A stretch of DNA of 54,258 nt from Natrinema pallidum DSM 3751 (GTDB lineage: Archaea > Halobacteriota > Halobacteria > Halobacteriales > Natrialbaceae). A model generated the notes under the pieces. The model had not been told where the DNA came from. It saw nothing but the letters and a program-made list of their open reading frames with translations, and did not search any database. Both the position numbers and the translations under genes were made by a program. Below are positions 38,342 through 54,258 of the stretch, in pieces (position 1 is the stretch's first letter; every line of letters begins with the position of its first letter). The stretch lies in the NCBI RefSeq assembly GCF_000337615.1, contig NZ_AOII01000088.1, positions 101,371-155,628 of the forward strand, written 5' to 3'.

Positions 38342-38415
38342 GGGCCGGTAGCTCAGTCCGGCAGAGCGTCTGACTCTTAATCAGACGGTCGCGTGTTCAA
38401 ATCGCGCCCGGCCCG
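38342..38415 (+). tRNA. tRNA-Lys (anticodon CTT)
   Basis: Seven-base acceptor stem GGGCCGG / CCGGCCC, discriminator G, D-arm with AGCTCAGTCCGGCAGAGC, anticodon stem TCTGA / TCAGA with loop CTCTTAA giving anticodon CTT, and T-arm GCGTG-TTCAAAT-CGCGC. No intron, and CCA is not encoded. The 3' third serves as attachment site of the integrated element that starts here, and the tRNA is left intact. Confidence 0.95.
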
Positions 38416-38419
38416 CTTT
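38387..38419 (+). repeat. attL (left attachment site)
   Basis: 33 bases starting GGTCGCGTGTTCAAAT and ending GGCCCGCTTT, covering the T-arm and 3' acceptor of tRNA-Lys plus four bases beyond. Identical to 44552-44584. The bases just outside differ (C against G on the left, C against T on the right). Confidence 0.9.
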
Positions 38420-38979
38420 CCGAAGGACGGATACCAAGTCAGACTATTAGCGGCTGAACTGTTAGTTCATAGTGTTCCTGTCCATTAGAAGGTTCGGAAA
38501 CCCCCACCATTTCGACGTGAGTTCGTTTCGAATCTGATGCGCGTCCGCGCTATCCAGCGGTTTTCCAATAGCCGATAGTTGATTCAGTACCTCTTGCTGT
38601 GTTCTACCTCATCGAGTCGTTGGTTCACAATATCAGCGGGCTGAGGATGCACCACTACACCGGGAGTAGGCGAGAAGCGGGAACTTCGCCGCGAGGAGTT
38701 CGGAATGGAGTAGCGAACACGGCTTCAACCCATCTTTGGACGTGACTCCCCGGGTTAGACCGTCCAAAACCAGCCTGAATTTTTTAATTCTCTTGCAAGA
38801 ACCTCGGCGTTGTCCATGGGTTTCGGTATCTTTTTGTCACTGGCTCCCGTTTGTTTAAGTGAAGGGTTTTCGCCGGAGGCTACCTTGAGCAGTCGCGGGT
38901 ATCGTGATCAGTTCCACGGTTCCTCGCATAGAGCGCAAGTGTTGACGTTCCACCGAGAGCCTTCTCCATCCTTCGACCT
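38420..38979. other. Left end of the element, no gene seen
   Basis: 560 bases between attL and the replication gene. No open frame with protein-like composition. A TATA-like GTTTGTTTAAG lies at about 38850. This is a reasonable place for the replication origin, but I see no iterons. Confidence 0.45.
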
Positions 38980-40626
38980 ATGAGTACAGATACATCTCCG
39001 TCTCCATCAGCGAGTAGTACAGCGACAACGTCGAACAGCAATGATCTCCCGTGCGTGCAGTACGGCTTTCCTGACGGGCCGCATCGGACGCCGAAACTCC
39101 AGACGGTTTACGAGCCGATTCCCGATAACGCCGCGACCGCCAGCCCCATCTACAAAGTCCCGAGAGCGCAGTACGAACGGCAAGACGAGTTCGAGAGAGG
39201 CTACGAGGTAGCGGGGACGACCTCGATAGCGACCGAGATCCAAGACGATTGCGAGGCCGATGACCGCGTCCTTTACCCCATTCACATCGAGTCTGATGCA
39301 TACCACGAGGTTGGCCCGGATACGCTTCTTTCGTGGTTCCGCGAGTTCGTCGAGGACTTCCTCGAAGTCCCGTTCAACACGTGTATGTTGTATTTCTCGG
39401 GAAATCGGTCGATTCACGTTCACGTTCCTCGGTTCGTGTCCGGTGAAGATGACCGGGAGTGGCTGAAGGAATTGGCTGAGTCATACTGCGAGGAGGCCGG
39501 GGCAGACCTCGATTTGGGGCTGTACTCACGGAAACGTCTATTCCGACTTCCCGGCGTCGAACACGCGAAGTCCAGCATCCCGAAGGTCGAAATCGAACCG
39601 ACATGGGACAGAACTCGTATCTTCCGTGAGGCAAACGGAGCGACCCCAAGTACGCCCGCAACGTACGCGGATGTACTGTGGGGTGTGTTTGGGCAGGACG
39701 GTCTGACAGTCGAGACAAGCGGCCCTGACGTGGACACCCCACAGAATCTGTTTCGAGTTCTTGACCCCGAGAAGACGCTCTTGGAGTTCACGCGCGATGA
39801 GCCGGTGAGTGAAATCAAGACTCCCCTCATCGAGCAGGTGGCATATCCCGCCGACCCGACTGACGTTCCGGAGTGGTCGATGTACAATACGCAGGAGTTC
39901 TCTCCGTATGCCCACGCGTCCGGGAATCCTCGAAGTGTCGCGGCGCTTCGCGTGAAAAGAGGGGTATTCGCCCGAGAGGACAAGCGTGGCGGCGCGACGA
40001 TGGTGCCAGCGTACTTCTACGGGGCGGTTGGGTGCAATGGGGGGTTCACGAAGCAGGACGTACACGCGCCACTCCAGTTGTCGAAGAAGGACTACCGGAA
40101 GTGGGACCACGCATCCGGGGAGAAGGTCGTCATCATCGGCGGCAAAAGCGGGAGTTCCCGAATTTTCAGCGTCTCCTCGTGGGAAGCCATCGAGGTCGGC
40201 CATGCGCTAACAAGCGATAAGGGTGGGCGAGATACTGCCCTCGACTATCTCTCCGAGCAGGGTTACGATGTTGGGGCGTCTGGTTCCACGGTGTCCGACT
40301 CGAAGGGGACGACTGCATTGAGGTCGGCGACTCCCGGCGAGGAACCACGGACGATCTGGCCCGCACGAGAGAATCCACAGACAGAAGCAGAATCCTTCCA
40401 GCAAACAGCAGAGCAAGGAGACATACACACGCTCTCACACGACGAGAAAATCCAAGTTGCGTGCCGCCATCTCCAATACGGATGGGAACCAACATGGGAG
40501 TGGTTCAGGGAGCAGTTTGGCTCCACATTCAAGCCCGGTGTTACATGGCGCTTCCTCAAGGAGATTGCTGAAGATCCTAACTTCCCGGAGTACGACGATG
40601 TGGACGTGCCTGCGAAACCTGCATAG
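38980..40626 (+). CDS. Archaeo-eukaryotic primase-like replication protein of the element
   Basis: A 548-residue protein. Residues about 95-205 look like the catalytic core of the AEP superfamily: PIHIESDAYHE (Glu104, Asp106) at the motif I position, YFSGNRSIHVHVP (Ser140-His146) as motif II. Then comes LFRLPGVEHAKSSIPKVEI with preceding acidic residues as motif III. Motif I reads E-x-D instead of the usual D-x-D. The remaining 340 residues are unassigned. They include a C-terminal helical part (ACRHLQYGWEPTWEWFREQF) that may bind DNA. As the only large gene of the element it is the likely replication initiator or primase. Confidence 0.65.
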   Translation: MSTDTSPSPSASSTATTSNSNDLPCVQYGFPDGPHRTPKLQTVYEPIPDNAATASPIYKVPRAQYERQDEFERGYEVAGTTSIATEIQDDCEADDRVLYPIHIESDAYHEVGPDTLLSWFREFVEDFLEVPFNTCMLYFSGNRSIHVHVPRFVSGEDDREWLKELAESYCEEAGADLDLGLYSRKRLFRLPGVEHAKSSIPKVEIEPTWDRTRIFREANGATPSTPATYADVLWGVFGQDGLTVETSGPDVDTPQNLFRVLDPEKTLLEFTRDEPVSEIKTPLIEQVAYPADPTDVPEWSMYNTQEFSPYAHASGNPRSVAALRVKRGVFAREDKRGGATMVPAYFYGAVGCNGGFTKQDVHAPLQLSKKDYRKWDHASGEKVVIIGGKSGSSRIFSVSSWEAIEVGHALTSDKGGRDTALDYLSEQGYDVGASGSTVSDSKGTTALRSATPGEEPRTIWPARENPQTEAESFQQTAEQGDIHTLSHDEKIQVACRHLQYGWEPTWEWFREQFGSTFKPGVTWRFLKEIAEDPNFPEYDDVDVPAKPA

Positions 40627-40799
40627 CACTCACATGCATACTGTATCCTATCACCCATTCAATTCTTACGGATAACCGCATTACTCAGACTGAAACGCAG
40701 TTTGACTTACATTCCCTCAATGAGCTGTTCCATTCATGGAGTGGGATTGGCCTCTCTGTAGACTGTCCACCCTTCTCCTCCCTACACCACCTACACCAC

Positions 40800-40817
40800 C
40801 ACTAAGTTATGGTGCGA
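40800..40817 (-). repeat. Triplicated 18-bp motif, copy A
   Basis: Plus-strand form CACTAAGTTATGGTGCGA, one mismatch to copy C. Similarity continues loosely for about 20 bases on its right. Reading on the minus strand it is followed by GTGGTGTAG twice and then by remains of a small gene. Confidence 0.65.
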
Positions 40818-41037
40818 AACCGCTGTACGGCGAACGGGTATTTCAGAGGATCGGGAGATCGTATTTAAAGGATGTTTCCATAGATGACCAAGCCACAGGC
40901 GTCTGAGGCGACCGCTATACGATGCGATAGATAAGTTATCTTTTGTAAAACAGTGCAGGTGGTATGATAGGGACGTTCGAAAGACTCCATGCTCTCTGAT
41001 TCAGGTTTACCAACAACAGGAATAGTGGCTGTCCAAG

Positions 41038-41057
41038 CAAGTAATTAACCTTACTTG
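41038..41057. promoter_or_regulatory. Perfect inverted repeat upstream of the membrane-protein genes
   Basis: CAAGTAA-TTAACC-TTACTTG, a 7-bp dyad with a 6-base centre, 120 bases before the first membrane-protein gene. Could be an operator. It is not followed by a T-run. Confidence 0.35.
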
Positions 41058-41177
41058 GTGGGGGAAGTTAGGTCAGTTGATATGGAGTGGTGACAGTAGA
41101 TACCATTGTTCAGGAAATACATATATTTTAAAATCAGAATTGTTATCCGTATAACTACATCACAAATACTCAGGCAG

Positions 41178-41594
41178 ATGCAAGTTAAGAATCTGGTTCA
41201 GAAGTTATTCAGCGCCAGTATATTAGTGGTAGCCATTGGCACTTTACTACCATGGGGAGTAGCTGTTTCTACGGGGGTTAGAGGGACTACAAGAGGGTTA
41301 ACTACAGTTGGTGGGTTTGCTGTTCTATCTCTGTCAATAATTCTTGGAGTATATACACTCAGGAACAGCGTTTCAGAAATTATTGGTTCCGCTGTTGCTT
41401 CCATAGCAATTTTTGTTTCGTTATTCTATATCGTTAACCCAGTCTTCCCTGAAACTTCTGGTAATATGTTTGTAGGTCAGGTCTATCCGGGGATTGGTGT
41501 TTACCTCTCACTTTTCGGTGGGGTAATAGCGCTTGCTTCTGTATGTATTATCAAATTCAGCAGTACTAAAACGGGAGAAACTCGTCCAATATAA
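41178..41594 (+). CDS. Four-helix membrane protein of the element, unknown function
   Basis: 138 residues from the ATG at 41178 (MQVKNLVQKLF). A start at 41106 would add a basic stretch without clear meaning. Four hydrophobic helices at about 12-32, 44-62, 66-86 and 106-127, with LLPWGVAV and a Gly/Thr-rich loop between the first two. The codon use is AT-rich. No family recognised. Similar small four-helix proteins are common in haloarchaeal plasmids and viruses. Confidence 0.65.
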   Translation: MQVKNLVQKLFSASILVVAIGTLLPWGVAVSTGVRGTTRGLTTVGGFAVLSLSIILGVYTLRNSVSEIIGSAVASIAIFVSLFYIVNPVFPETSGNMFVGQVYPGIGVYLSLFGGVIALASVCIIKFSSTKTGETRPI

Positions 41595-41681
41595 AGCCCT
41601 CATCACAGAGCATAATTATATTCTTACTCTCTGGCAGAAATCGGTTCGGTCAGTGAAAAGTAATACGCTCTTGTGTAGCAC

Positions 41682-41803
41682 ATTGTTGATACGGAGCTGT
41701 CCTGCGATTCTGCGGCGAGTGCGATAGATCACGAAGTTGCATCTCAGTGGCTCTGGCGGACAGGTATTGACTCGAGCCGACGACGGGAAGATGTATCAAC
41801 AAT
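41682..41803. repeat. 11-bp inverted repeat around a GC-richer segment
   Basis: ATTGTTGATAC (41682-41692) is mirrored by GTATCAACAAT (41793-41803) with 100 bases between. The enclosed DNA is richer in GC than its surroundings and is open in the frame of the following gene. It may be a small captured chromosomal piece. Origin unknown. Confidence 0.4.
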
Positions 41804-41855
41804 CTCCGCCATAAGAGCGAAAGTAATAAGTATTCTTAATGTGTTGGATATTGGG

Positions 41856-42332
41856 ATGACTGCCGTAACAATCCCTCACCCGCGTGAGGACGCGAAGACA
41901 GTTGTGAAGGCCGCATTCGAGGACTGTTCAGACATTGATACATACTTTGACGATGGTATTCGCATTACTGGTAAAACAGGGGCAAGCTTAGGACTTATCA
42001 CCTCCAGTTACGGTGAAAAGGTTATAATAGAGGTTCCAGAAAACCAGGCAAGTGAGACTGAGACAATGGTATCTGTGACTGGAGAAAAGGAAGTAAGCGC
42101 AAACATCGGAGCTGATCCAGAGAAATACATCTCACGGGTTATCAAGTCAATAAATGACATAAAGGGTAAAGATATTGATGTAATTATTGAGGTTTTGGAT
42201 GAGAACAATGTTAGTGAAAATAGTAAAGAAGTTAGGAATGAAGCTGATCAGGCGGGCGGAAAGGGGATCTTGATTCTTGTCATGGTACTGATTATGTTTT
42301 TCGTCTTCCTCATGCCGCTAATAATAATATGA
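41856..42332 (+). CDS. Tail-anchored protein of the element, unknown function
   Basis: 158 residues from the ATG at 41856 (MTAVTIPHPRED). Residues 1-130 look like a soluble alpha/beta domain (TVVKAAFEDCSDIDTYFDDG, then KVIIEVPENQ). The last 22 residues form a single hydrophobic helix (ILILVMVLIMFFVFLMPLIII split as ILILVMVLIM and FVFLMPLIII). So a membrane-anchored protein facing the cytoplasm or, less likely, a fusion-type surface protein. Its stop overlaps the next ATG (ATGA), showing co-translation. Confidence 0.65.
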   Translation: MTAVTIPHPREDAKTVVKAAFEDCSDIDTYFDDGIRITGKTGASLGLITSSYGEKVIIEVPENQASETETMVSVTGEKEVSANIGADPEKYISRVIKSINDIKGKDIDVIIEVLDENNVSENSKEVRNEADQAGGKGILILVMVLIMFFVFLMPLIII

Positions 42333-42682
42333 AGTCGATTATTGGTGCGGTATTGGTATTTATCGGAGTAGGTATTCTTCTACTTGGAGTTGCCGCCCCC
42401 TCAACGTCAACACAAACATCAACCACCTGTTACGATAGCCCAACAGGATATGGGCAAGACTGTGTGCAATCATCCTATGAAACACCAAACACGGGCAAGG
42501 GAGGGATGATTGGAGCTGGTATCTTTGTCGCTATTATTGGTGGGATACTTACTATGTCTAACTCATCATCCGCAGAATCCTCTGGTCAATCATCGCAAGA
42601 CGGAACTCAGAGTTTGAAAGACCAAATACAGGAACGACAATCAGAAAGAGAACAAAAAGAAAGTGTGGGTGTTGATAAATAA
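42329..42682 (+). CDS. Two-helix membrane protein with hydrophilic tail, unknown function
   Basis: 117 residues. The first helix is at 4-23, followed by a Ser/Thr-rich loop with two cysteines (TTCYDSPTGYGQDCVQ) likely exposed outside. The second helix is at about 58-76, then a Gln/Ser/Glu-rich charged tail in the cytoplasm. It is overlapped by four bases with the upstream tail-anchored gene, which suggests the two act together in the membrane. No family recognised. Confidence 0.65.
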   Translation: MKSIIGAVLVFIGVGILLLGVAAPSTSTQTSTTCYDSPTGYGQDCVQSSYETPNTGKGGMIGAGIFVAIIGGILTMSNSSSAESSGQSSQDGTQSLKDQIQERQSEREQKESVGVDK

Positions 42683-42988
42683 CAAATTCATTCCGTTGTT
42701 CAATCCATTGAGGTAGTTGTTTCTTCTTCTCGCTCGATGGAGTGAGTCCACCTTTCCTGTTTCCGTTCATCGAGTCGGTTGTTTCTCCACTTGCCTCAAA
42801 GAGTCTGTTATCTCTAAGATGGACCCTCACTAAGTTCTGTTGCGATAATCACAGTACAACGTGGATTCGAGATCTTCGAAGTCCAGAGAAAATGAAACCA
42901 GGCAATCCTGACTCTCAGCCGGAAATTTCGCAGGCGGAGTTACCTAATACGCGCTCGCGTGCGCTCGGTGATGTTCTAACTGGTGAGG
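42683..42988. other. Intergenic region with motif copy B and a decayed minus-strand gene
   Basis: 306 bases. Reading leftwards from motif copy B, the minus strand encodes MNGNRKGGLTPSSEKKKQL, which resembles WNGNRRGNGHI...LTDRERELI of the intact small gene at 42989 but soon runs into unrelated sequence. I take it as a truncated paralogue. Confidence 0.45.
42828..42845 (-). repeat. Triplicated 18-bp motif, copy B
   Basis: Plus-strand form CACTAAGTTCTGTTGCGA, one mismatch to copy C. On the minus strand it ends in GTG, in the same position as the start codon after copy C. Confidence 0.65.
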
Positions 42989-43285
42989 TTACTGCATCGG
43001 GTCGTCTATTCCTTCTCCTCTACTCGATGTGCTGGTGCCTTCTGATTCACACACCACCTCGCAGAGTCCCGCGTAGAGGCCAGGATAGTTCTCTCGCAGT
43101 ACCGCTACGTCGGTCGTCAGTTCATCCTCAATTTTCCGCCAGACTCGGGAGATTGTTTGGTAGCGGAGGTTTTCATCGACGGTGTCTCCACCCTCTATGA
43201 GTTCGCGCTCTCGGTCGGTTAGCAGAGCACGGCCCTCAATGTGTCCGTTACCTCTGCGGTTCCCGTTCCACACAACACACTCCAC
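42989..43285 (-). CDS. Small acidic protein of haloarchaeal mobile elements, unknown function
   Basis: 98 residues from GTG at 43285, alternatively from the in-frame GTG five codons downstream that gives VWNGNRRGNG. The basic start and GRALLTDRERELIEGG, then YQTISRVWRKIEDELTTDV, predict a helical protein, possibly DNA-binding. I recall similar proteins encoded in many haloarchaeal plasmids and integrated elements, without a known role. The motif copy C covers the region just before and including its GTG start. It lies between the membrane genes and the integrase, in the integrase direction. Confidence 0.7.
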   Translation of the reverse strand: MECVVWNGNRRGNGHIEGRALLTDRERELIEGGDTVDENLRYQTISRVWRKIEDELTTDVAVLRENYPGLYAGLCEVVCESEGTSTSSRGEGIDDPMQ

Positions 43286-43300
43286 TAAGTTATGTTGCGA
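43283..43300 (-). repeat. Triplicated 18-bp motif, copy C, at the start of the small acidic gene
   Basis: Plus-strand form CACTAAGTTATGTTGCGA. On the minus strand it reads TCGCAACATAACTTAGTG, whose last three bases are the GTG start. A further GTTGC upstream forms an inverted pair with the GCAAC of the motif. Likely promoter or operator. Confidence 0.65.
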
Positions 43301-43449
43301 GAACCACGGTAAGGCAACGAGGTAGTAGCATAACTACAGTCACCGCCTATATAAAAGAACGTCCCTCTGACTCCTTCTTTGCCGAATTTGTCCCGCTGGT
43401 CATTAACGGGGGAGTCGAGTAGCCCCGTCGATGCCCTCCAACCGTCGAG

Positions 43450-44472
43450 TTAGATGTTGTCGAAGTAACCTCGCCGGTTCTTCATCTCCTGTTTCTTCGT
43501 GCGTTTGTCGTAATGCTTCTTCAGCACATCCGCGCTCACGTCCATCCGTTCGGATACGGCTTCAATCGGGATTTCGCTCCGTCGTGCGTGCGTGATTGCT
43601 CCCTTCCGCAGAGAGTGTGAGGCGTGAGAGGAGGGACACTTAGACGCCGCGTGATAGGAATTTGCCGCGTCGCACTCCTTGGATTCTCGGTCGTGTGGAC
43701 AGTCAAGCCCGTACTTGCACGGACGGGTAGCGCGGTAGCAGTTGCTTCGGATAGATGTTTTCGAGATACGTCCCTGTCGCGTCGTCAGTAGCGGCTCGCG
43801 TCCAAACTCATCGGTTTTGGCGAATCTGTGATGCGCGATGTAGTCCTGCACTATCTGGTTGACTTTTGGCTTGAGAGAGACAACACGTTCGCCCTCTTTT
43901 CCGTTCTTTAGCGGAGTTTCCTCCTCCGGACGATGATGGATTTCGAGCGTGCGTTCTCCCTTATCGTAGTCATCGAGGTCGATAGCCCGGAGTGCACCAT
44001 TCCGCATCCCGGTATGCCACAGTAACTCGAAGATGACGTGTTCGCGTTGAGAGTAGTTGAAGTTCCGCTGATACTCGATGATAGCCTGCCCGGTGTCTGT
44101 GTCGATGTAGTCGTCATTCACGTCCTCTTTGTTCTTCATTGTCGGCGGGTCGATGTAATCCGACAGGCCGGGTTGGACGGCGTCAATGCCCTCACAGAAG
44201 TCGATGAAGACCTTGAGCGTACTCAGTTGGGTCGCCATCGTGACCTTGTTGCAGTCGCCTTTCGCTCGTCGCCACTTCTTGTACTGGTGGAAGTGCCGCC
44301 CGCTAAGGTCGTTCATATTGGTCACCTCTCCCTCGGTGTCGCACCATTCAACGAACGGGGAGAGTCGATACTTGTGCGCTCGATAGGTAGCGTCAGCCAG
44401 TTCGCCGCGTCGATTTTCGAGATACCACTCCTTCGCTTCCTGCGGGTCTATTGGCTTGAGATCGGTTGTCAT
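43450..44472 (-). CDS. Tyrosine recombinase/integrase of the element
   Basis: A 340-residue site-specific recombinase. The N-terminal SAM-like arm domain is at about 10-100. In the catalytic domain, Arg157 lies in WHTGMRNGALRAIDL, His286 and Arg289 in HASHSLRKGAITHARR, and the nucleophile Tyr321 in LKKHYDKR. Between them is a cysteine-rich insert (Cys245, 252, 258, 267, 279) that may bind zinc. This general form is that of SNJ2-type haloarchaeal integrases. It points towards and lies 79 bases from attR, the normal place for the gene that catalyses integration into the tRNA. Confidence 0.92.
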   Translation of the reverse strand: MTTDLKPIDPQEAKEWYLENRRGELADATYRAHKYRLSPFVEWCDTEGEVTNMNDLSGRHFHQYKKWRRAKGDCNKVTMATQLSTLKVFIDFCEGIDAVQPGLSDYIDPPTMKNKEDVNDDYIDTDTGQAIIEYQRNFNYSQREHVIFELLWHTGMRNGALRAIDLDDYDKGERTLEIHHRPEEETPLKNGKEGERVVSLKPKVNQIVQDYIAHHRFAKTDEFGREPLLTTRQGRISKTSIRSNCYRATRPCKYGLDCPHDRESKECDAANSYHAASKCPSSHASHSLRKGAITHARRSEIPIEAVSERMDVSADVLKKHYDKRTKKQEMKNRRGYFDNI

Positions 44473-44530
44473 TAGTGGGCCTCGCGCTCAGCACACCAAG
44501 TGCGTCACCTCGGTAATCCTCCTTCCCGTA

Positions 44531-44545
44531 GGCGCTGAAAGCGCC
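44531..44545. repeat. Perfect hairpin beside attR
   Basis: GGCGCT-GAA-AGCGCC, 6-bp stem and 3-base loop, six bases before the att core. Same style (short stem, three-base loop) as the hairpins in the IS6 transposase. Could be an arm site for integrase or a small palindromic repeat. Confidence 0.5.
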
Positions 44546-44551
44546 GGAGGG

Positions 44552-44584
44552 GGTCGCGTGTTCAAATCGCGCCCGGCCCGCTTT
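44552..44584 (+). repeat. attR (right attachment site, tRNA-Lys 3' fragment)
   Basis: Exact 33-bp copy of 38387-38419. Lacks the 5' half of the tRNA, so it is not a tRNA gene. Confidence 0.92.
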
Positions 44585-44636
44585 TTCGACGACCGGTTTC
44601 GTACAGAGCGAAGCGGCGACGGCGATTTGAACCGGA

Positions 44637-44668
44637 CCAGAAAGGCACAGCAAAGCGAGCATTTCTGG
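44637..44668. repeat. Inverted repeat downstream of attR
   Basis: CCAGAAA and TTTCTGG, 7-bp perfect arms 18 bases apart, just after a T-loop-like GATTTGAACCGG on the plus strand. Sequences of this type occur after haloarchaeal tRNA genes in my recollection. It may be a relic of an older integration. Confidence 0.35.
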
Positions 44669-44705
44669 GCGGAGCTCACAATCGCGCCCGGCCTCGCCGT
44701 CGGTC

Positions 44706-45140
44706 TCACTCCGTCGTGTTCGTCTCCGCGGGCGGGTCCACATCCGTTTCGTCGGCCATCGCGTGAAGGTGCTCGAGCAGGAGGCCGACCCCCTCCGGCT
44801 TGATCCAGGTCGTGACCGCCCCCTCGTCTTCGGCCTCCGTAATGACCCGCTCGGCGTCGCGGACGGGAACCGAGAACTCGACCGGCTGGTCGAAGCGGTC
44901 CTCGTTTCCGTCGATTAGGGATTTGACCTCGGCAAGTTCGCGACGGACGTACTCGTAGGGAGCCATCGACTCGGTCTCGTCGCCGATGACGAACCGGCGG
45001 GTGCGTCCGTCATCGAGTCGGAGTCTGACGACGCCCGCGTCGATGCGGTCGGCCTCGAGATACTCCGCCAGCACGTCCTCGAAGAAATCGGTCGTCATCC
45101 GATCGCCTCGCAGTTTCGAGTCCGAGTGATCAGGCGACAT
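44706..45140 (-). CDS. Acidic haloarchaeal protein of unknown function
   Basis: 144 residues, or 130 from the internal ATG at 45098 (MTTDFFEDVLAEYLEADRID), which I consider at least as likely. Mixed alpha/beta composition: VVRLRLDDGRTRRFVIGDE, EYVRRELAEVKSLID, VEFSVPVRDAERVITEAE, VTTWIKPEGVGLLLEHL. No motif, signal or membrane helix, and no family recognised. It lies outside the integrated element and is divergent from the d1 locus, so it was probably the next chromosomal gene after tRNA-Lys before integration. Confidence 0.7.
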   Translation of the reverse strand: MSPDHSDSKLRGDRMTTDFFEDVLAEYLEADRIDAGVVRLRLDDGRTRRFVIGDETESMAPYEYVRRELAEVKSLIDGNEDRFDQPVEFSVPVRDAERVITEAEDEGAVTTWIKPEGVGLLLEHLHAMADETDVDPPAETNTTE

Positions 45141-45391: not shown

Positions 45392-47224
45392 ATGTCACGA
45401 TCGGAGTCACCGGCCGAGTCGATTGCGGAGCAGGAGGAGCGAATCAAGCGCCACTTGAGCGCGTCGCGGGAGATCGCGGAGCGCCTGGAGTTCAACGACG
45501 AACTCAGCTTCGAGATGGGGTTGCCCAGTCCGGGCCGTCGGACGTTCATCAAGACCAGTGGCGTCGTGGCGGCGTCGGCAGCACTGGCGGGCTGTGCCGG
45601 CGACGATGATGACGACGGGCCGGAGTCGACGGACGACGAGGAGTCGCCCGACGAGGAAACGCCGGAGGCCGAACGGAGCGAAACAGTGCAGTTGACCGCC
45701 AAGCAGTACGAGTTCCAGCCACAGGAGATCCGGGTCCCGCCGAACACGGAACTCACGATCGAGTTCACACAGTCGACCTTCGAGAAGAACGAGGAGTTCA
45801 CGATGCATACGTTCTACCTCGAGGACCCGTACGACATCGGCCCCATCGAACTCCCCGAGAACACGGACGACGGCCCCATCGATTCGGTCACGTTCGTCAC
45901 CGACGAGGAGGGGACGTTCGATTTCGAGTGTAGCGCCTACTGCGGGGACGGCCACGCACAGATGAACGGCCAACTGTACGTCGTCCCGGAGGGCGAGTCC
46001 GTCGACGAGGTGGACTTCACCGATATGGGGACGCTGAAGGAGCGCCACGAGATCCTCAAAGAGGAACGCGAACTGGTCCAAGAGCCCCAACACGACCTCG
46101 ACCTGCGGGACATCATGGTCGTCACCGAGCGCAACAACGCCTCGGTCGCGATGATCGATACGGTCAACGATCGGCTCATGGAGCGCGTCGAGAACGTGGG
46201 GAAGGCGATCCACGTCCACGACTTCCATCCGGAACTGCCCGAGCAGACTCGGGAGGGCGCGTACGTGTACACGCAATCCCGGCAGGGTGAGATGTACAAA
46301 ATCGACCTGTTCGACTTCGAACGGGTCGCCGTCGCCGACGCCGGGACGGACGCCCGGGACATCGCCGTTTCCCGGGACGGCAACTACGTGATCGGCGGGT
46401 TCTACAACCCGAACCATCTGGTCATCTGCGACGCCGAGACGATGGAGCCGATCAAGCGGATTCCGACCCACACCGTCAATCCGGACGGCGAGAGCCTGGG
46501 GAGTCGCGTCTGCTCGCTGTACGACGTCCCCGAGGAGGGGCTATTCCTCGCGGGCCTGAAAGAGGGGGGAGAGGTGTGGCTCATCGATTATACCCAAGAG
46601 GACTTCCCGGTCGTGGCGACCATCGAGTGCGGCCGGACCCTCCACGACGGCTTCTTCACGGCGGACGGCCGCTACTTCATGATCGCCTCTCAGACGGACA
46701 ACCAGATGGACATCATCGACACGCAGGAGCGGAGCCACGTCGCCGCGATCCCGATGAACGGGGTCCCCCACCCCGGTCCGGGCGCGCTGTACCCCGACGA
46801 GGATCTCGCCTTCACCACCCACGCCGGTTCGTCGAGCGTTGGCGTCTGGAACACGGAGACCTGGGAGGCGGAGACAATGATCGATGTCAGGGGCTCCGGG
46901 CTGTTCATCCGGAAACACGAGCACAGCGACTACGTCTGGGCCGACATCATCCTCACCGACACCGAGGACGACGCCTACGTCTACACCATCGATCCCGATA
47001 CTCTCGAGGTGGACCAGGAGATCGACTGTAGCCAGTGGGGAGCCGCGGCGGCGATCCACCCCGAGTTCAGCCGCGACGGCGAGAAGGTCTATATCAGCGT
47101 CTGGAAGGGCGAGAACGAATCGATCCTCGTGTTCGATCCGAACACGGGCGAGTTGCTCACCCAGATCGAAGACCTGCTCGCACCGACCGGCAAGTTCCTC
47201 GGCGTCCGCGCGGAGGGGCACTGA
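45392..47224 (+). CDS. CuA-type cupredoxin fused to cytochrome-d1 propeller (NirS/NirN-like) Tat lipoprotein
   Basis: A 610-residue exported enzyme. An N-terminal extension of 48 residues precedes the Tat motif GRRTFIKTSG and lipobox LAGC. The cupredoxin domain (about 95-200) has a full CuA set: His139, Cys180, Cys184, His188, Met191 in CSAYCGDGHAQM. Residues about 240-610 align along the whole d1 propeller of NirS: His274 in KAIHVHDF matches the proximal d1-haem ligand. DARDIAVS, TLHDGFF (His418, one distal His), VPHPGPGA, FTTHAGSSSVGVW and LLAPTGKF follow in order. The second distal His of NirS (HPEPR) is replaced (ESLGSR). No CxxCH haem c site. I infer nitrite reduction or a d1-linked dehydrogenase fed by copper. 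A start at the internal ATG 45515 is possible. Confidence 0.8.
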   Translation: MSRSESPAESIAEQEERIKRHLSASREIAERLEFNDELSFEMGLPSPGRRTFIKTSGVVAASAALAGCAGDDDDDGPESTDDEESPDEETPEAERSETVQLTAKQYEFQPQEIRVPPNTELTIEFTQSTFEKNEEFTMHTFYLEDPYDIGPIELPENTDDGPIDSVTFVTDEEGTFDFECSAYCGDGHAQMNGQLYVVPEGESVDEVDFTDMGTLKERHEILKEERELVQEPQHDLDLRDIMVVTERNNASVAMIDTVNDRLMERVENVGKAIHVHDFHPELPEQTREGAYVYTQSRQGEMYKIDLFDFERVAVADAGTDARDIAVSRDGNYVIGGFYNPNHLVICDAETMEPIKRIPTHTVNPDGESLGSRVCSLYDVPEEGLFLAGLKEGGEVWLIDYTQEDFPVVATIECGRTLHDGFFTADGRYFMIASQTDNQMDIIDTQERSHVAAIPMNGVPHPGPGALYPDEDLAFTTHAGSSSVGVWNTETWEAETMIDVRGSGLFIRKHEHSDYVWADIILTDTEDDAYVYTIDPDTLEVDQEIDCSQWGAAAAIHPEFSRDGEKVYISVWKGENESILVFDPNTGELLTQIEDLLAPTGKFLGVRAEGH

Positions 47225-47250: not shown

Positions 47251-48393
47251 ATGCCCGAGAGACATTCCGACGCGATGACGACGACACCGGCGCGACGAGG
47301 ACCGGGACCGCTCGCACTCGTCAAGCACCTCCGCGGTACGGGGCTGACGGTGATCGACGCGGCCGCCCACGAACCGCTCGGTCGGATCGGCGACGGTCGC
47401 CAGCCCCACGCACTCGCCGTCCGTCCCGGCGGCCGCTGGGCGTACGTCCCGTACATGGCGTCGAACGCGCTCGAGATCGTCGACCTCTGGACGCTGTCCG
47501 TCGCGGGTCGCGTCGATGAGGTCGGGACCGCGCCCGTGGGAGCGGTGCTGAGCCGAACGGGGCGGTACCTGTTCATCAGTACCTACGGCGATCTCCCGGG
47601 CAACGACCGCCCGGGACTGGCCGTCTTTCGGACGGCCGGCGAGCGGGTCGAGTTGATCGCGCAACGCCCCGTCGGGAAGGCCGCCGGCCTCGCCGTCGAC
47701 GCCGGCAACGACGTGTGGGTCGCGCTGCGAGACGACGATGAGTTGCTCCGGATCGATGGAACGCCCCCGTTCAACGTCCTGGATCGGTTCGCGGTCGGTG
47801 CCGGTCCGCAGGACTTGGCCTCCGAATCGAGCCGAGGACTGCTTGGCGTGAACAACGCCGACGGGGACAGCGTGACCGTCGTCGATACGCGCGCGGCGAC
47901 GGTCCTCGGGACGGTCCCCGCCCCGAACCCGAGGGGCGGGACCGCCGTGCCGGGCAGCGACCGCTGGGTCGTCGGCGACACGGCGGGTGATGGCCTCACG
48001 GTCATCGATCTCGGGGCGGTCCGACGCGGGGACGGCGAGGGGGCGGTCGCCGACCGTGTCTCGCTGGGAACGCCGACGGCCTTTCCCGACGTTACCCCGG
48101 ACGGTGCCGTCCTCGCCGTCGACGCGTACGACGACGACCGGGTCACGTTCCTCGACCCCTCGAGTCTGGATGTCCTCGAACGGGTCGAGACCGGAGCGAC
48201 GCCGCGTCATCCACGGTTCAGCGCGGACGGCGGGGTCTGTTACGTCCCCAGCGTCGACGCCGACGCGGTCACCGTCATCGACGTCGACGACGTTCGAGCC
48301 GACGAACCCGATCCGATCGTAACGAGCATCGACGTACCCGAGGGAGCCGCCCCTGCGGGCTGTTTTCGTACCGATAGAGGGAGAGACACATGA
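47251..48393 (+). CDS. YVTN/NirF-like beta-propeller protein 1
   Basis: A 380-residue all-beta protein with six to seven blade repeats of the type LTVIDAAAHEPLGRI ... PHALAVRPGGRWAYVPYM. Related to the propellers of NirF and NirN, proteins for heme d1 synthesis and insertion. No signal peptide is visible, so it appears cytoplasmic. ATG 47251 gives MPERHSDAMTTT, and 47275 is an alternative start. The first is 26 bases after the d1 protein. Its stop overlaps the next ATG by four bases. The NirF role comes from context and fold, not from catalytic residues. Confidence 0.75.
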   Translation: MPERHSDAMTTTPARRGPGPLALVKHLRGTGLTVIDAAAHEPLGRIGDGRQPHALAVRPGGRWAYVPYMASNALEIVDLWTLSVAGRVDEVGTAPVGAVLSRTGRYLFISTYGDLPGNDRPGLAVFRTAGERVELIAQRPVGKAAGLAVDAGNDVWVALRDDDELLRIDGTPPFNVLDRFAVGAGPQDLASESSRGLLGVNNADGDSVTVVDTRAATVLGTVPAPNPRGGTAVPGSDRWVVGDTAGDGLTVIDLGAVRRGDGEGAVADRVSLGTPTAFPDVTPDGAVLAVDAYDDDRVTFLDPSSLDVLERVETGATPRHPRFSADGGVCYVPSVDADAVTVIDVDDVRADEPDPIVTSIDVPEGAAPAGCFRTDRGRDT

Positions 48394-49529
48394 CATCAGA
48401 GACTGAGACCGACACCGTTGCGAGCGACCGCTCGTCCGGCGCGCCGACGATCGTGAAAAACGCCGCGAGCAGCCACTTCAGCGCGGTCGATCTCGCCGCG
48501 GGCGAGGTCGTCGCGGAGTTCGGGGAGGGCCGATACCCGCACACGGCAGTGTTCCACCCCGACGAACCGGTCGCGTACCTGTTGTACATCGCCAGCGCCC
48601 ACCTCGAAGTGGTCGATCTCGAGGCGCTCGAGACCGTCCAGCGCATCGACCGGCTCGGGACGATGCCCGTCGGGAGCGCGCTCGGCCCGGGCGGCGACGT
48701 GCTGTTCGTCGGGACCGCAGTCGACCTGCCCGCGTCGTCGGAGCCGGGCGTCCTCGCGTTCGTGATCGGCGAGGATGGCCGACTCGAGCCCGCGGGAACG
48801 CGCCCGCTCTCGCGGAGTTCCGGCATGCGAATCGGCCCGGACGAGCGGCTTTACGTGGGCCAGAAGACCGAAAACGAGATCGCCGTCCTCGGTGCCGATC
48901 CCGGCCTCGACCTCGCGGCCGAGATTCCGGTCGGGCCGGAGCCACACGACCTGTACGTCCTCGCGGAGGGGCTGGTGGTCGCCAACCACGCCGGCGGGGC
49001 GTCGGCTGCGTTCGTCGACCCCGCCGCCGAGCGGGTTCGCTGTACCGCCGAGACAGGGACGAACCCCCACGGGTTCGCCGTCGCCGACGGCCCCGACTAC
49101 CGGTATGGTTTGTTTCCGGCCCGCGAGGACGACCGCGTCGCCGTCGTCGACCTCGAGGCGGTCGCGGCCGGCGACGACTCGCCGACCGAACGGCTGCTCG
49201 ATGTCGGGACGACGACCGGTTTCGCCGCGACGACGCCGGACGGCCGCTACGCGATCGTCGACTCCTACGAGGAGCCGTTCGTGACGATCCTGGACCTGGC
49301 CGACCTCGCGGTCGCCGGCCGCGTCGAGGTCGGCGGGGAACCGCTCCATCTCGTCTTCGGCCCCGACGGGGAGGAGTGTTACGTCGGGAACATGACGCGG
49401 ACTGACATCGCGGTACTGGACGCGCGACCGCTCGCCGACGGTCGCCCGGCGGACGTTGCCGTCGACCGCCGAATCGACGGACTCGGCGAGAAACCGAGCG
49501 GTATCTTCCGCCCGGAGGTGGACCAATGA
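48390..49529 (+). CDS. YVTN/NirF-like beta-propeller protein 2
   Basis: A 379-residue propeller, clearly a paralogue of the preceding one: IVKNAASSHFSAVDLAAGEVVAEFGEGRYPHTAVF (given as SSHFSAVDLAAGE and RYPHTAVFHPDEP), RTDIAVLDARPLADGRP near the end. Cytoplasmic, no leader. Four-base overlaps with both neighbours (ATGA at each junction) show tight translational coupling with propeller 1 and the radical SAM gene. The pair may form a heterodimer that handles the d1 precursor, replacing single NirF. Inferred. Confidence 0.75.
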   Translation: MTSETETDTVASDRSSGAPTIVKNAASSHFSAVDLAAGEVVAEFGEGRYPHTAVFHPDEPVAYLLYIASAHLEVVDLEALETVQRIDRLGTMPVGSALGPGGDVLFVGTAVDLPASSEPGVLAFVIGEDGRLEPAGTRPLSRSSGMRIGPDERLYVGQKTENEIAVLGADPGLDLAAEIPVGPEPHDLYVLAEGLVVANHAGGASAAFVDPAAERVRCTAETGTNPHGFAVADGPDYRYGLFPAREDDRVAVVDLEAVAAGDDSPTERLLDVGTTTGFAATTPDGRYAIVDSYEEPFVTILDLADLAVAGRVEVGGEPLHLVFGPDGEECYVGNMTRTDIAVLDARPLADGRPADVAVDRRIDGLGEKPSGIFRPEVDQ

Positions 49530-50746
49530 TCGATCTCACGCGACTCATCAGAGGCCTCGACAACCGACCGGAACAGATCCGATACGAGAACCGCCGCGCG
49601 AGCGACGCGCTCGTCCCGCTGGTCGTCTGGAACACGACTCCCGCCTGCAACCTGCGGTGCAAACACTGCTACTTCGGGGCCTGCGATGAGCGCGACAGCG
49701 AGGAGCTGTCGACGGCCGAGGCCAAGGCGTTCATCGACTCGCTGGCCGCGGTGAACGTCCCGGTGCTCGTGTTCAGCGGGGGCGAGCCGTTCTTCCGCGA
49801 CGACATCGCCGAACTCACTCGGCACGCGTCCGCGCGGGGAATCCGGCCGATCGCCTCGAGCAACGGTACGTTCCTCACCGAGGAGCGCGCGCAAGCGGTC
49901 GCCGACGCGGGGATGCAGTACGTCGGCGTCTCGCTGGACGGCGTCGGGGCGACCAACGACGAGTTCCGCGGCGTCGATGGGGCCTTCGAACGGGCCCGCA
50001 ACGGGCTCCGCAACGCCCGCGACGCCGGGATGGGGACCGGCATTCGGTGTACGATGACCGAGGGGACCGTCGACGACGTCCCCGATGTGATCGACCTCGC
50101 CGTCGAGGAGGGGATCGATCGGGTGAACGTCTTCCACCTGATCTACTCCGGTCGCGGCGGGGACATCACCGACGCCGACCTCTCCGTCGAGCGGACGCGG
50201 GCGGTCGTCGACTCCCTCTACGAGCGCACCAAAACGCTCGCCGAAACCTATCCCGACATGCAGCTCCTGACCGCCGGCAACTACGCGGACGCGGTCTACC
50301 TCTACCACCGCATTCGGGAGGACATGCCGGCCCACGCGGATCGGGCGCGAAAACTCCTGTTCGACGACGGCCCCGGTCGCGTCGTCAAGAACGGCGACGC
50401 CGGTCCCAAGGTCGTCAATGTCGACCACCGCGGCGATGTCCACCCGAGCATGTTCCTCTCGCAGTACACGCTCGGGAACGTCCGCGATCGCCGCCTCGAC
50501 GAGATCCTCGCTGACAGCGACCTCTGGGACGAACTGGCCGAACCGACCGATCACCTGAAGGGGAAATGCGGTCGCTGTCCCTGGAAGGAGGTCTGTGGCG
50601 GGAACTCCCGGGCCCGCGCCGCGGCGGTCCACGACGACCTCTGGGCTGAAGACCCCCGGTGTTACCTCACCGAGGCCGAGTACAGCACCGACGAACTGCC
50701 AACCGACCACGCGCCACCGGTCGACGCGACCGCAGCACTCGAGTAG
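49526..50746 (+). CDS. nirJ: Radical SAM/SPASM enzyme, NirJ-like (heme d1 synthesis)
   Basis: A 406-residue iron-sulfur enzyme. The radical SAM cluster is Cys41-x3-Cys45-x2-Cys48 in TPACNLRCKHCYFG, followed by VFSGGEPFFRDDIAEL for SAM binding. The C-terminal SPASM-type cluster has CGRCPWKEVCGGNSRARAAA, the form seen in NirJ and AhbD, which modify tetrapyrrole propionates. In NirS organisms NirJ acts on didecarboxysiroheme. The neighbouring d1 protein and HemA favour NirJ over AhbD, PqqE-like or other SPASM enzymes. Overlaps the propeller gene by four bases. Confidence 0.82.
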   Translation: MIDLTRLIRGLDNRPEQIRYENRRASDALVPLVVWNTTPACNLRCKHCYFGACDERDSEELSTAEAKAFIDSLAAVNVPVLVFSGGEPFFRDDIAELTRHASARGIRPIASSNGTFLTEERAQAVADAGMQYVGVSLDGVGATNDEFRGVDGAFERARNGLRNARDAGMGTGIRCTMTEGTVDDVPDVIDLAVEEGIDRVNVFHLIYSGRGGDITDADLSVERTRAVVDSLYERTKTLAETYPDMQLLTAGNYADAVYLYHRIREDMPAHADRARKLLFDDGPGRVVKNGDAGPKVVNVDHRGDVHPSMFLSQYTLGNVRDRRLDEILADSDLWDELAEPTDHLKGKCGRCPWKEVCGGNSRARAAAVHDDLWAEDPRCYLTEAEYSTDELPTDHAPPVDATAALE

Positions 50747-50750
50747 GCCG

Positions 50751-52052
50751 ATGCACGTACCCGACGCAGCGCCACCGGATGCGAGACCCGAGCCCGGGCC
50801 GTCGCCGGTCGCGGCGGTGCCGAAGAGCGTCCGCCGACTCGCGTGTTATCGGCTCGACCACGAGACCCGATCGACCGAGGAACTGGGCGCGGTCGCTCCG
50901 GACGACCCCGTCGCCGCCGCCCGGCGGATCGCGGCCCACGACCGCGTTACCGAGGCGGTCGTGCTCTCGACGTGCAACCGCGTCGAGGCGTATCTCAGCA
51001 CGCGCACGCCGGCGGACCGGGACGCGGGGCTCGATGCCGCACGCGAGGCGCTGGGCGATCCCGACGGCGCGCGGACCGAGACCGGACTCGCAGTCGTCGA
51101 CCACCTGTTTCGCGTCGCCTGCGGCCTCGAGAGCGCCGTCATCGGCGAGGCGCACGTCCTCGGACAGGTCCGTCGAGCGTTCGAGACGGCGCTCGACGCG
51201 GACCTCGCCGGCGGGGTGGTGACCCGGGCCGCGGACGCTGCCGTCTCGGTGGGACGGCGCTGTCGCGACGAAACCGGCATCGCCGAGGGAACGGTCGGCT
51301 ACGGGAGCGCGACCTGCGAGGCCATCGCCGACGAGGGCGACGTCCTCGATCGCCTCGTCGTCGTCGGTGCCGGCGAAATGGCGACCGAGGTGGCGAACGC
51401 CGCCGGCCACCGCTGGGACTGCCGCGTCGACGCCGTCAACCGCTCGGCCGCCCCGGAGCTGCCGACTGACGATGGTCGGGACTGGCCGCTCGAGGCCCTC
51501 GAACGGGCGCTCGCCGACGCCGACGCGATCGTGACGGCGACGGGCGCGCCGGACCCGGTGGTGACCACCGAGGCGATGCGGCGAGTCGGGCCGGAGACGC
51601 CGGTCGTGGACCTGGCGAGCCCGCCCGATGTCGCCGAGGCCGTTCGGCGATCGGCCGTACCGGTCGTGGCCCTCGACGTGATCCAGCGTCGGATCGAGGC
51701 GGCCGTGGCGGATCGGCGGGCGGCGGTCCCGGCTGTCGAGGATGCAGTCACCGACGCGGTCGCGGCCTTCGTCGACCGGGAACGCGAGAACCGCGCCGAG
51801 GACACGCTCCGCGAACTCCACCGGGCGGCGGCCGCGATCCGCGAGAGCGAACTCGAACAGGCCCGTACCCGACTCGAAAACGGGGCCGATCCCGAGATCG
51901 TCCTGGCGGACTTCGCCAGCGCGCTGACCGGCTCGCTCCTCGGCACGCCGACCGAACGCCTCCGGACGGCCGCGCGCGACGGCGACGATGCAGTCATCGA
52001 CGCCACCCACCGGCTGTTCGACCTCGACGGCGATCGCGAGCGGTCGGAGTGA
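50751..52052 (+). CDS. hemA: Glutamyl-tRNA reductase HemA
   Basis: A 433-residue enzyme making glutamate-1-semialdehyde from glutamyl-tRNA, first committed step of tetrapyrrole synthesis. Catalytic Cys75 in VLSTCNRVEAYL, GEAHVLGQVRRAFE for the tRNA/substrate site, NADPH-binding VVVGAGEMATEVA, then the dimerisation helix (TLRELHRAAAAIRE). The ATG at 50751 lies four bases after the nirJ stop. The first 25 residues are Pro-rich extension. Being placed in a d1 operon and not with hemL or hemB suggests a copy dedicated to higher tetrapyrrole demand when nitrogen oxides are respired. Confidence 0.93.
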   Translation: MHVPDAAPPDARPEPGPSPVAAVPKSVRRLACYRLDHETRSTEELGAVAPDDPVAAARRIAAHDRVTEAVVLSTCNRVEAYLSTRTPADRDAGLDAAREALGDPDGARTETGLAVVDHLFRVACGLESAVIGEAHVLGQVRRAFETALDADLAGGVVTRAADAAVSVGRRCRDETGIAEGTVGYGSATCEAIADEGDVLDRLVVVGAGEMATEVANAAGHRWDCRVDAVNRSAAPELPTDDGRDWPLEALERALADADAIVTATGAPDPVVTTEAMRRVGPETPVVDLASPPDVAEAVRRSAVPVVALDVIQRRIEAAVADRRAAVPAVEDAVTDAVAAFVDRERENRAEDTLRELHRAAAAIRESELEQARTRLENGADPEIVLADFASALTGSLLGTPTERLRTAARDGDDAVIDATHRLFDLDGDRERSE

Positions 52053-52341
52053 CTGCGTCCGTTGGTATCCGGCCACGCGGCGGTCTCCGATCGCGTGTCG
52101 TCCGCCCCGGCAGCCGTCGGTTTCGCCGTCCGTTGCCCGTGTCTCCGTCCTCGAGCGGCGGGTGAGGGTGGGTACGGCCGGCGATCGGCGTGCTCCGCCC
52201 CCCATTTGAAAACCCGCCATTAGCCGGATTTCGGCGGTAGCGTCCTCAGAGCGTGGGAACAGCCGGGGACCGGTTAAAGATGAGAGGGACAAGGTCACCG
52301 TGTATGCTACTGAAACGCTCCGCCACACGAGGTGGTCGGCG

Positions 52342-54258
52342 ATGAGTCTCTCGCGACGCGATTTCCTGGCGGCCGCCGGGACGGGGACAGTCGGTGCCCT
52401 GCTCGGGTCCGCGTGGGGAGCGACGCAATCCGTCGACACCATCACGCAGGTCGACAATCCCCTCAAGTCCTATCCGAACCGGGACTGGGAAGAGGTTTAC
52501 CACGACATCTACTCGTACGACAGGGTCGACTGGACGGTCTGTCACCCCAACTGTACGCAGTCGTGTGCGCTGAACTTCTACATGAAAAACGGCGTGCCGA
52601 TCAGGGCCGAGCAGATCTACCACGAAGAGGAGGGGAGCCCCGGCCCGGGGAGCCCCGGCGGCTACGAGGAAGCGGGCGTCAGCCGCCACTGGAACCCGCG
52701 CGGTTGCATGAAGGGGCTGACGCTTCACCGCCGGACGTTCGAGCCCAGTCGGATCAAGTATCCCATGGTTCGCAAGGGGTGGAGCCCCGACGACCCCAAC
52801 CCCGAGGGCCGCGGCGAGGACGAGTTCGAGCGCGTCTCCTGGGACGAGGCGATCGACCTGATCGCCGAGAAGATGGCGAGTCTGGAAGACGAGAAACGGT
52901 TCCACATCTTCAACGCGATCAAGGCCGACGGGCTGATCACCCGCCACGGGGCCGGCCGGCGGCTCGCGTCGGTCTTCGGCGGTTGCGAGTGGACGGAATA
53001 CGACTGGTACGCCGACCTGCCGCCGGGCCACGTCATCACGACGGGCTATCAGACCAGCGATGCCGACGCATCGGCGTGGCGAGCCGCCGATTACACCATC
53101 ATTCAGGGGAAGAACCTGATCCACAACAAGCTCGCGGACAACCACTTCCTCCAGGAGACCCGCGAGCGCGGCGGCAAGATGGTCGGCGTCTACCCCGACT
53201 ACTCGCCGACCGTCCAGAAGTGCGACCGCTGGCTCCCCGTCCGCCCGGGCAGCGACCCCGCGTTCGCCCTGGGCGTGGCTCACGTCATCATCGACGAGGA
53301 CCTGTACGACGAGGAGTTCATGCGGAAGTTCACGACCCTACCGCTGTTGATCCGGCAGGACGACGGGAAGTACCTCCGCGCCCACGAGGTCTTCGCGGAT
53401 CACGAGCCGCCCGCCGAAGACAGCGAGCAGCGCCACGAGGAGAACGACTGGGGCGACTTCGTCGCCCTCGACGAGAACGGCAACCCCGTCCCCGTCACTC
53501 GCGAAGAAGTCGGCGACGAGACGCCCGTGACACCCCGGCTCGAGGTCGACACCGAACTCGAGCTGGCAAACGGCGAGTCGGTCGGCGTCCACACCGATTT
53601 CGTCCGGCAGCGGTCGAACATCATGGCGAACTACGATCCGGAGACGGTCGAAGACATCACGACGATTCCGGCCGACGCGCTTCGGAAAACCGCCCGGGAG
53701 TTCGCCGACGCAGAGAAGGCCCAGTGGTTCACCGGCGAGGGGATCAACCACTGGTTCCACTCGAACGACTCGCTCCAGCGGACGATCTTCTTCGTCCAGT
53801 CGATGCTGGGCAACATCGGCGAGCGGGGGGCCGGCTACTACAACTACTCCGGCCAGTACAAGATCGAACTGCTGGACGGCTACCCCTCCTACGTCAACCC
53901 CGACGGCAACGCGGCCCACGGGATGTATCCCGGCTACGCGTTCGCGTTCTTCGGCGGCGAGCAGCTGGACGCCCACGAGATTCGCGGGGACTTCGACCGC
54001 GAACTCGACCTCGTGCCACAGGGCGACGCCGAGGAGCCGGTGATGCCGACGAACGCCGAGTCGTACACGATGTCGAAGCCGACGATCCTGTGGACGATGA
54101 ACTGCAATCTCCTGAATCAGACCAAACATCAGGAGCACGTCATCGAGAACTTCGTCAAACACCCCGACACGAGCAACGAACTCTCGATCGTCTCGGACAT
54201 GCACATGACCTACTCCGCGCGCCACGCGGACATCGTGCTCCCGGTCCCCTCCTGGCTC
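52342..54258 (+). CDS. narG: NarG-type respiratory molybdenum oxidoreductase, catalytic subunit (cut by window edge)
   Basis: The first 639 residues of a Mo-bisPGD enzyme of the type II DMSO-reductase family, exported by Tat (LSRRDFLAAAGTG). The iron-sulfur site is Cys67-x3-Cys71-x3-Cys75 and Cys122 in RGCMKG, so Cys stands where E. coli NarG has His. EYDWYADLPPG contains Asp225 in the position of the Mo-ligand Asp of NarG. Halobacterial nitrate reductase faces outside, in agreement with the leader. I prefer nitrate reductase to selenate, chlorate or dimethylsulfide enzymes because of the locus, but the call rests on partial sequence. ATG 52342 is chosen; an in-frame GTG exists at 52300. Confidence 0.8.
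   Translation, partial: MSLSRRDFLAAAGTGTVGALLGSAWGATQSVDTITQVDNPLKSYPNRDWEEVYHDIYSYDRVDWTVCHPNCTQSCALNFYMKNGVPIRAEQIYHEEEGSPGPGSPGGYEEAGVSRHWNPRGCMKGLTLHRRTFEPSRIKYPMVRKGWSPDDPNPEGRGEDEFERVSWDEAIDLIAEKMASLEDEKRFHIFNAIKADGLITRHGAGRRLASVFGGCEWTEYDWYADLPPGHVITTGYQTSDADASAWRAADYTIIQGKNLIHNKLADNHFLQETRERGGKMVGVYPDYSPTVQKCDRWLPVRPGSDPAFALGVAHVIIDEDLYDEEFMRKFTTLPLLIRQDDGKYLRAHEVFADHEPPAEDSEQRHEENDWGDFVALDENGNPVPVTREEVGDETPVTPRLEVDTELELANGESVGVHTDFVRQRSNIMANYDPETVEDITTIPADALRKTAREFADAEKAQWFTGEGINHWFHSNDSLQRTIFFVQSMLGNIGERGAGYYNYSGQYKIELLDGYPSYVNPDGNAAHGMYPGYAFAFFGGEQLDAHEIRGDFDRELDLVPQGDAEEPVMPTNAESYTMSKPTILWTMNCNLLNQTKHQEHVIENFVKHPDTSNELSIVSDMHMTYSARHADIVLPVPSWL

Follow-up and report, generated by a model that had tools for sequence, protein, structure and literature searches.

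The stretch of DNA analysed here (the window, 54,258 nucleotides) lies on contig NZ_AOII01000088.1 of Natrinema pallidum DSM 3751, whose assembly comprises 3.9 Mb in 115 contigs. Towards its end it carries an operon of five genes, the first of which encodes a protein that joins a CuA-type cupredoxin domain to a cytochrome d1 propeller (CuA-d1). Among named organisms, Natrinema altunense and N. gari come closest at this locus, with 97 and 96% protein identity, respectively. The following features were identified:

45392..47224, + strand: CuA-d1 protein, 610 aa, with a Tat/lipobox signal, a CuA cupredoxin and a cytochrome d1 propeller (Pfam, PDB profile searches, homologue alignments, structural model and fold matches)
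45536..45595, + strand: Tat signal and lipobox, approximate, RRTFIKTSGVVAASAALAGC, residues 49-68 (homologue alignment, weak Pfam TAT match)
45665..46027, + strand: CuA cupredoxin domain with the ligands H139, C180, C184, H188 and M191 (alignments, profile search, fold model)
46100..47210, + strand: cytochrome d1 propeller with the codons of H274 (46211-46213), H418 (46643-46645) and H460 (46769-46771)
47275..48393 (start at 47251 or 47275), + strand: NirF-like propeller 1, no evident export signal, collinear with NirF (hhalign E 2e-10)
48390..49529, + strand: NirF-like propeller 2, no evident export signal, collinear with NirF (hhalign E 6e-10)
49526..50746, + strand: NirJ/AhbC-type radical SAM enzyme (Cys motifs, NCBIfam scores, co-occurrence, tree)
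50751..52052, + strand: second glutamyl-tRNA reductase, HemA (TIGR01035, 222 bits, over the cut-off; STCNR motif)
52300..54258, + strand: NarG-type molybdopterin oxidoreductase, continuing past the end of the window

In Natrinema the operon runs into narGHJ, and the order downstream of it in the host is the NarG-type gene, NarH, a nitrate reductase delta subunit and an EB_dh-domain protein. The break of the NarG frame at the window end (54258, corresponding to C88:155629) is an assembly artefact caused by a scaffold join with a single N and a short duplicated stretch. Upstream of the operon, in Natrinema as well as in Halorubrum, lies a divergent gene for a protein of 144 aa without Pfam match (44706-45140) that could encode a regulator or an accessory protein. 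The preceding segment of about 6 kb (38342-44700), reaching from a tRNA-Lys gene (38342-38416) to the gene at 44706, has no counterpart at this site in N. altunense AJ2. It includes a tyrosine recombinase (43450-44472), and a second copy of the tRNA-Lys end appears to lie near 44552, which fits an integrated element.

The open reading frame of CuA-d1 (+ strand, ending at 47224) could start at a GTG (45383) or an ATG (45392), the latter being the likely start since homologues begin with MSxSE at the same point. The protein matches the Pfam families Cytochrom_D1 (PF02239, residues 240-607, 3e-75) and Cupredoxin_1 (2e-6), with Pfam positions counted from the GTG, i.e., shifted by +3 relative to the numbering of the 610 aa protein. 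These E-values, together with the conservation across several genera, exclude that the architecture arose by chance. A twin arginine and a lipobox cysteine were found in all ten homologues checked, and CuA-d1 is the sole product of the operon with an export signal. Scanning the sequence for CxxCH, the haem attachment motif of the N-terminal cytochrome c domain by which NirS is recognised, gave no hit, and the place of this domain is taken by the cupredoxin. Profiles, predicted folds, ligand conservation and a d1-type operon thus all bear out the core of the initial annotation, which had proposed that a CuA cupredoxin replaces the cytochrome c domain on a d1 propeller, making the protein a copper-fed relative of NirS.

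A complete set of CuA ligands had also been proposed for the cupredoxin domain, and indeed H139, C180, C184, H188 and M191 are all present and do not vary among ten sequences with identities as low as 50%, in the arrangement H, C-x3-C-x3-H-x2-M on a cupredoxin fold that defines CuA. When a profile of the cupredoxin alone was searched against the PDB, the best relatives of solved structure were CuA domains, namely those from NosZ and from ba3 oxidase (E 3e-5, ligands aligned). Structure prediction, suggested at the outset as a check, agreed with the annotation for both domains (see below for the propeller), as CuA domains were the first Foldseek matches of a separate cupredoxin model (pLDDT 85). 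In a second fold comparison (VIA) CuA domains ranked among several cupredoxins with tied Z values of about 10-12, so that the fold alone is not decisive for the CuA type and it is the ligand spacing that decides. On plasmids, the annotated proteins most closely related to the domain are subunits II of oxidases, for the most part from haloarchaea. Its fold and its complete set of ligands are shared with the CuA domains found in subunit II of ba3 oxidase and in NosZ, but those feed a haem-copper site or CuZ, whereas the cupredoxin described here sits on a d1 propeller. In Halobiforma-type genomes a divergently oriented Sco1/SenC gene adjoins the CuA-d1 gene. Proteins of the Sco1/SenC family are known for the delivery of copper to CuA.

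The propeller aligns with NirS, NirN and NirF in PDB profile searches, and the model of the whole protein (pLDDT 71, with the propeller mostly between 65 and 95) matches the folds of NirS (Z 47), NirN (Z 45) and NirF (Z 38.5). As annotated initially, H274 aligns with the proximal haem histidine of NirS and H418 (LHDG) with its first distal histidine. The second distal histidine had been described as changed, which has to be corrected: H460, located in the motif PHPGPGA, aligns with PHPGRGA, i.e., with H369 of P. aeruginosa NirS, and is conserved throughout the CuA-d1 proteins. The NirS triad is therefore complete (H274/H418/H460) and invariant in all CuA-d1 proteins aligned, and with the whole triad in place the reading as a copper-fed relative of NirS is stronger than originally held. 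By contrast, the alignment shows that the first distal histidine is lost from NirN (LDD for LHD) and NirF (PYD), both of which share the propeller family with CuA-d1. An assignment as NirN was rejected, given the kept LHDG and the lack of a CxxCH for the N-terminal cytochrome c domain that NirN carries, and an assignment as NirF was rejected because CuA-d1 keeps LHDG in place of PYD and has two domains, unlike the single propeller of NirF. With NirS (P. aeruginosa 1nir, P. pantotrophus 1aof) the protein has the propeller fold, the proximal and both distal histidines in common, and NirS operons likewise include NirJ- and NirF-like genes; however, NirS has a cytochrome c domain where CuA-d1 has a CuA cupredoxin, and CuA-d1 is a predicted Tat lipoprotein. 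As the d1 site is common to both and the cytochrome c domain is missing, we regard CuA-d1 as a variant of NirS that probably works like NirS, and not as a cytochrome cd1. In the NirS enzymes with solved structures, electrons enter via haem c.

The order CuA-d1, two propellers, radical SAM enzyme and second HemA is the same in the window and in nine other loci, and genes 2 and 3 as well as genes 3 and 4 overlap by four bases. The alignments of the two propeller proteins (genes 2 and 3) with NirF span the whole length and include the position of the proximal histidine and a C-terminal SGIF-type motif; both proteins also match other YVTN propellers, some of these better than NirF. The radical SAM enzyme carries CxxxCxxC and CX2CX5CX21C; a motif CX2CX5CX20-21C has been given for AhbC and NirJ (PMC12505453). 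It scores 368 bits with the NCBIfam model NirJ1 and 332 bits with NirJ, both below the cut-offs (515 for NirJ), is about equidistant from NirJ and AhbC (33-42% identity), forms its own group in the tree and differs from the cell's own AhbC-like and AhbD-like genes. Siroheme decarboxylase domains of the AhbA/AhbB type are present in two two-domain genes. A strict NirN or NirC was not identified, and since in addition the radical SAM enzyme does not resemble NirJ more closely than AhbC, the cofactor of CuA-d1 could differ from haem d1.

Full-length relatives of CuA-d1 were found in 15 of 391 Halobacteria genomes, belonging to six genera; Natrinema, Halorubrum, Natronomonas and Halobiforma are among the named carriers. 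Neither the rest of the archaeal phylum sample nor 72,556 plasmids yielded a further relative of full length. (One extra match of the phylum search, L054 in G682, is an ordinary bacterial-type NirS with CxxCH that might stem from contamination or transfer.) The operon is conserved in all 15 carriers with the CuA-d1 gene in first position. Its radical SAM and propeller genes occur in every carrier and in none of 13 non-carriers of the same genera (Fisher 3e-8, ignoring kinship), and the second HemA in 14 carriers (the exception being G223) and again in none of the 13 (Fisher 7e-7, likewise ignoring kinship).

In a tree of d1 domains, the CuA-d1 group together with a propeller-only paralogue is placed beside NirS and NirN (support 80/92 and 89/90). 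The best tree thus has CuA-d1 outside the NirS clade, with a grouping of CuA-d1 and NirS not being rejected (AU p 0.29). A special tie to alphaproteobacterial NirS, which gives the top BLAST match (38% identity), is disfavoured (AU p 0.047). The paralogue, in the host located at C34:39573-40781 (L020) next to genes for a multi-pass membrane protein and a small TusA-like protein, has the complete NirS-type histidine triad and lacks both a cupredoxin and an evident signal. It was found in eight of the 15 carriers and in no other genome of the class sample. In the tree it nests within the CuA-d1 group (alternative placement p 0.064), which suggests that it has lost the cupredoxin, and it might act as a cytoplasmic carrier or chaperone of d1 haem. 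A role as obligatory NirF was rejected, as it was not found in seven carriers. On a plasmid of Natrinema thermotolerans (CP031304.1, L040 12001-13226) a copy that is unannotated in PLSDB matches in two pieces and may be frameshifted.

All 15 carriers also have NirK (in one case as fragments), compared to seven of the 13 non-carriers (one in fragments), which identifies the carriers as denitrifiers. This rules out CuA-d1 as a replacement of NirK and makes it look redundant as a second nitrite reductase. Of the seven carriers tested for the cytochrome c assembly family PF01578, six, among them the host, do not have it, the exception being a Halobiforma-type genome (G320). The family is also missing from relatives of two carriers in which the CuA-d1 gene does not occur, which makes its absence a general trait of these haloarchaea. 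With most hosts being devoid of this family, CuA could have taken the place of cytochrome c.

From these genomic data we consider it fairly probable that CuA-d1 is a Tat-exported, lipid-anchored, extracellular d1-haem nitrite reductase of denitrifying haloarchaea that is fed via CuA. In the proposed mechanism, a small extracellular donor, possibly of the halocyanin type suggested in the initial annotation, would reduce the N-terminal CuA centre, from which the electron would pass to a d1-type haem held by H274 in the eight-bladed propeller, and nitrite would be reduced to NO at this haem with the aid of the H418/H460 pair, as in NirS. We infer nitrite as the substrate because the NirS triad is complete, nitrate reductase genes lie nearby and denitrification genes co-occur; the universal presence of NirK among the carriers leaves room for another role. 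Starting from siroheme, the AhbA/AhbB proteins of the cell and then the NirJ-like radical SAM enzyme and the two NirF-like propellers of the operon would synthesise the d1-type haem, with the second HemA possibly raising the tetrapyrrole supply. The Tat signal indicates that the protein could be exported in a folded state with the haem in place, i.e., loaded in the cytoplasm, and copper might then be added outside the cell by Sco. CuA would stand in for cytochrome c in hosts that mostly lack the cytochrome c assembly family tested. Put most simply, in cells without the canonical assembly of cytochrome c, a NirS-like enzyme would have lost its cytochrome c domain, or never possessed one, and would take up electrons through CuA. 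Whether these proteins form a class of d1-haem nitrite reductases of their own, with electron entry through CuA, no c-type cytochrome, a condensed operon in which a NirJ-like radical SAM enzyme and two cytoplasmic NirF-like propellers replace NirF, NirC and NirN, and Tat export possibly in haem-bound form, we judge to be evenly balanced.

Several other explanations have to be weighed against a nitrite reductase. With NirK already performing the NO-forming step in every carrier, and with a d1 group that stands apart from the NirS clade in the tree, the main reaction of a CuA-fed d1 enzyme might be a different one, for example the chemistry of NO, oxygen or hydroxylamine, or the balancing of nitrite and NO. 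We regard this as unlikely, since the catalytic histidine triad of NirS is intact and the operon lies beside nitrate reductase genes in Natrinema; moreover, more than one nitrite reductase also occurs in several bacteria (PMC10999283). The protein might also serve in the biosynthesis, storage or carriage of haem d1 in the manner of NirN or NirF, with CuA as electron acceptor and without being a terminal reductase. NirN, which scores level with NirS in pairwise profile searches and lies with NirS beside the CuA-d1 group in the tree, is likewise a redox enzyme built on this propeller. However, the first distal histidine missing from NirN and NirF is kept in CuA-d1, among the operon proteins it alone carries an export signal, and a PF02239 search of the host yielded no other candidate for NirS besides the propeller-only paralogue, which renders such a role improbable.

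A NirS-like enzyme could instead hold a different modified tetrapyrrole, produced by the unusual operon of a radical SAM enzyme and two propellers. The equal distance of the former to NirJ and AhbC, the merely distant relationship of genes 2 and 3 to NirF and the lack of an identified strict NirN/NirC set would fit this idea, but propeller and ligands match the d1 family strongly and the same kinds of enzymes are found in related operons, so that we consider it distinctly improbable. Finally, the combination of a propeller with a CuA domain resembling that of NosZ recalls nitrous oxide reductases of the NosZ or L-NosZ kind, and the NCBIfam model of L-NosZ does match part of the propeller (2e-13). 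Its score of 49.6 bits is nevertheless far from the cut-off of 700, the d1 profile is a far better match and the domain order is reversed, with CuA at the C-terminus of NosZ (residues 546-637) and at the N-terminus of CuA-d1. On the score and the N-terminal CuA we rejected membership in these families, and an activity of this kind appears hardly credible.

One study reports NirK alone for haloarchaea (PMC8400030). In another survey, 21 genomes of haloarchaea are listed as having nirK together with a KEGG nirS, in the genera in which we find CuA-d1 (PMC11052009, Table 6). A NirS-like protein of Halobacteriota without cytochrome c has been taken as an outgroup to NirS and its clade excluded (PMC10999283). 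Very probably this clade and the KEGG nirS genes are the same genes as those encoding CuA-d1, because the genera coincide (Natrinema, Halobiforma, Halorubrum, Natronomonas), a cytochrome c domain is missing and NirK is found in the same genomes. Neither a CuA domain nor a five-gene operon is described in the main texts of PMC11052009 and PMC10999283. The C1-C2-NirS of Chloroflexi carries an N-terminal cupredoxin (PMC8756737) and resembles CuA-d1 in the N-terminal fusion of a copper domain, but there the cupredoxin or plastocyanin-like domain comes on top of two cytochrome c domains, whereas in CuA-d1 it is of the CuA type and replaces them. In the main texts of freely accessible papers we found no description of CuA on a d1 propeller. 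In several alphaproteobacteria (L036, L037, L043) we observed nirS followed by a NapC/NirT gene and a gene for a plastocyanin/azurin-like or copper-binding protein. Copper proteins may be more common as partners of NirS.

Surveys are affected by these genes, as haloarchaea have been treated as having NirK only (PMC8400030), nirS has been counted in the same genera (PMC11052009) and the clade has been excluded (PMC10999283). If the proposed function holds true, it would show that another centre of electron entry can be wired to the d1 catalytic module, in hosts without the cytochrome c assembly family tested. The synthesis of haem d1 in bacteria has been described with the cytochrome NirC (PMC13168839); a NirC-free synthesis of this cofactor and its insertion in the cytoplasm would, in that case, become directly testable.
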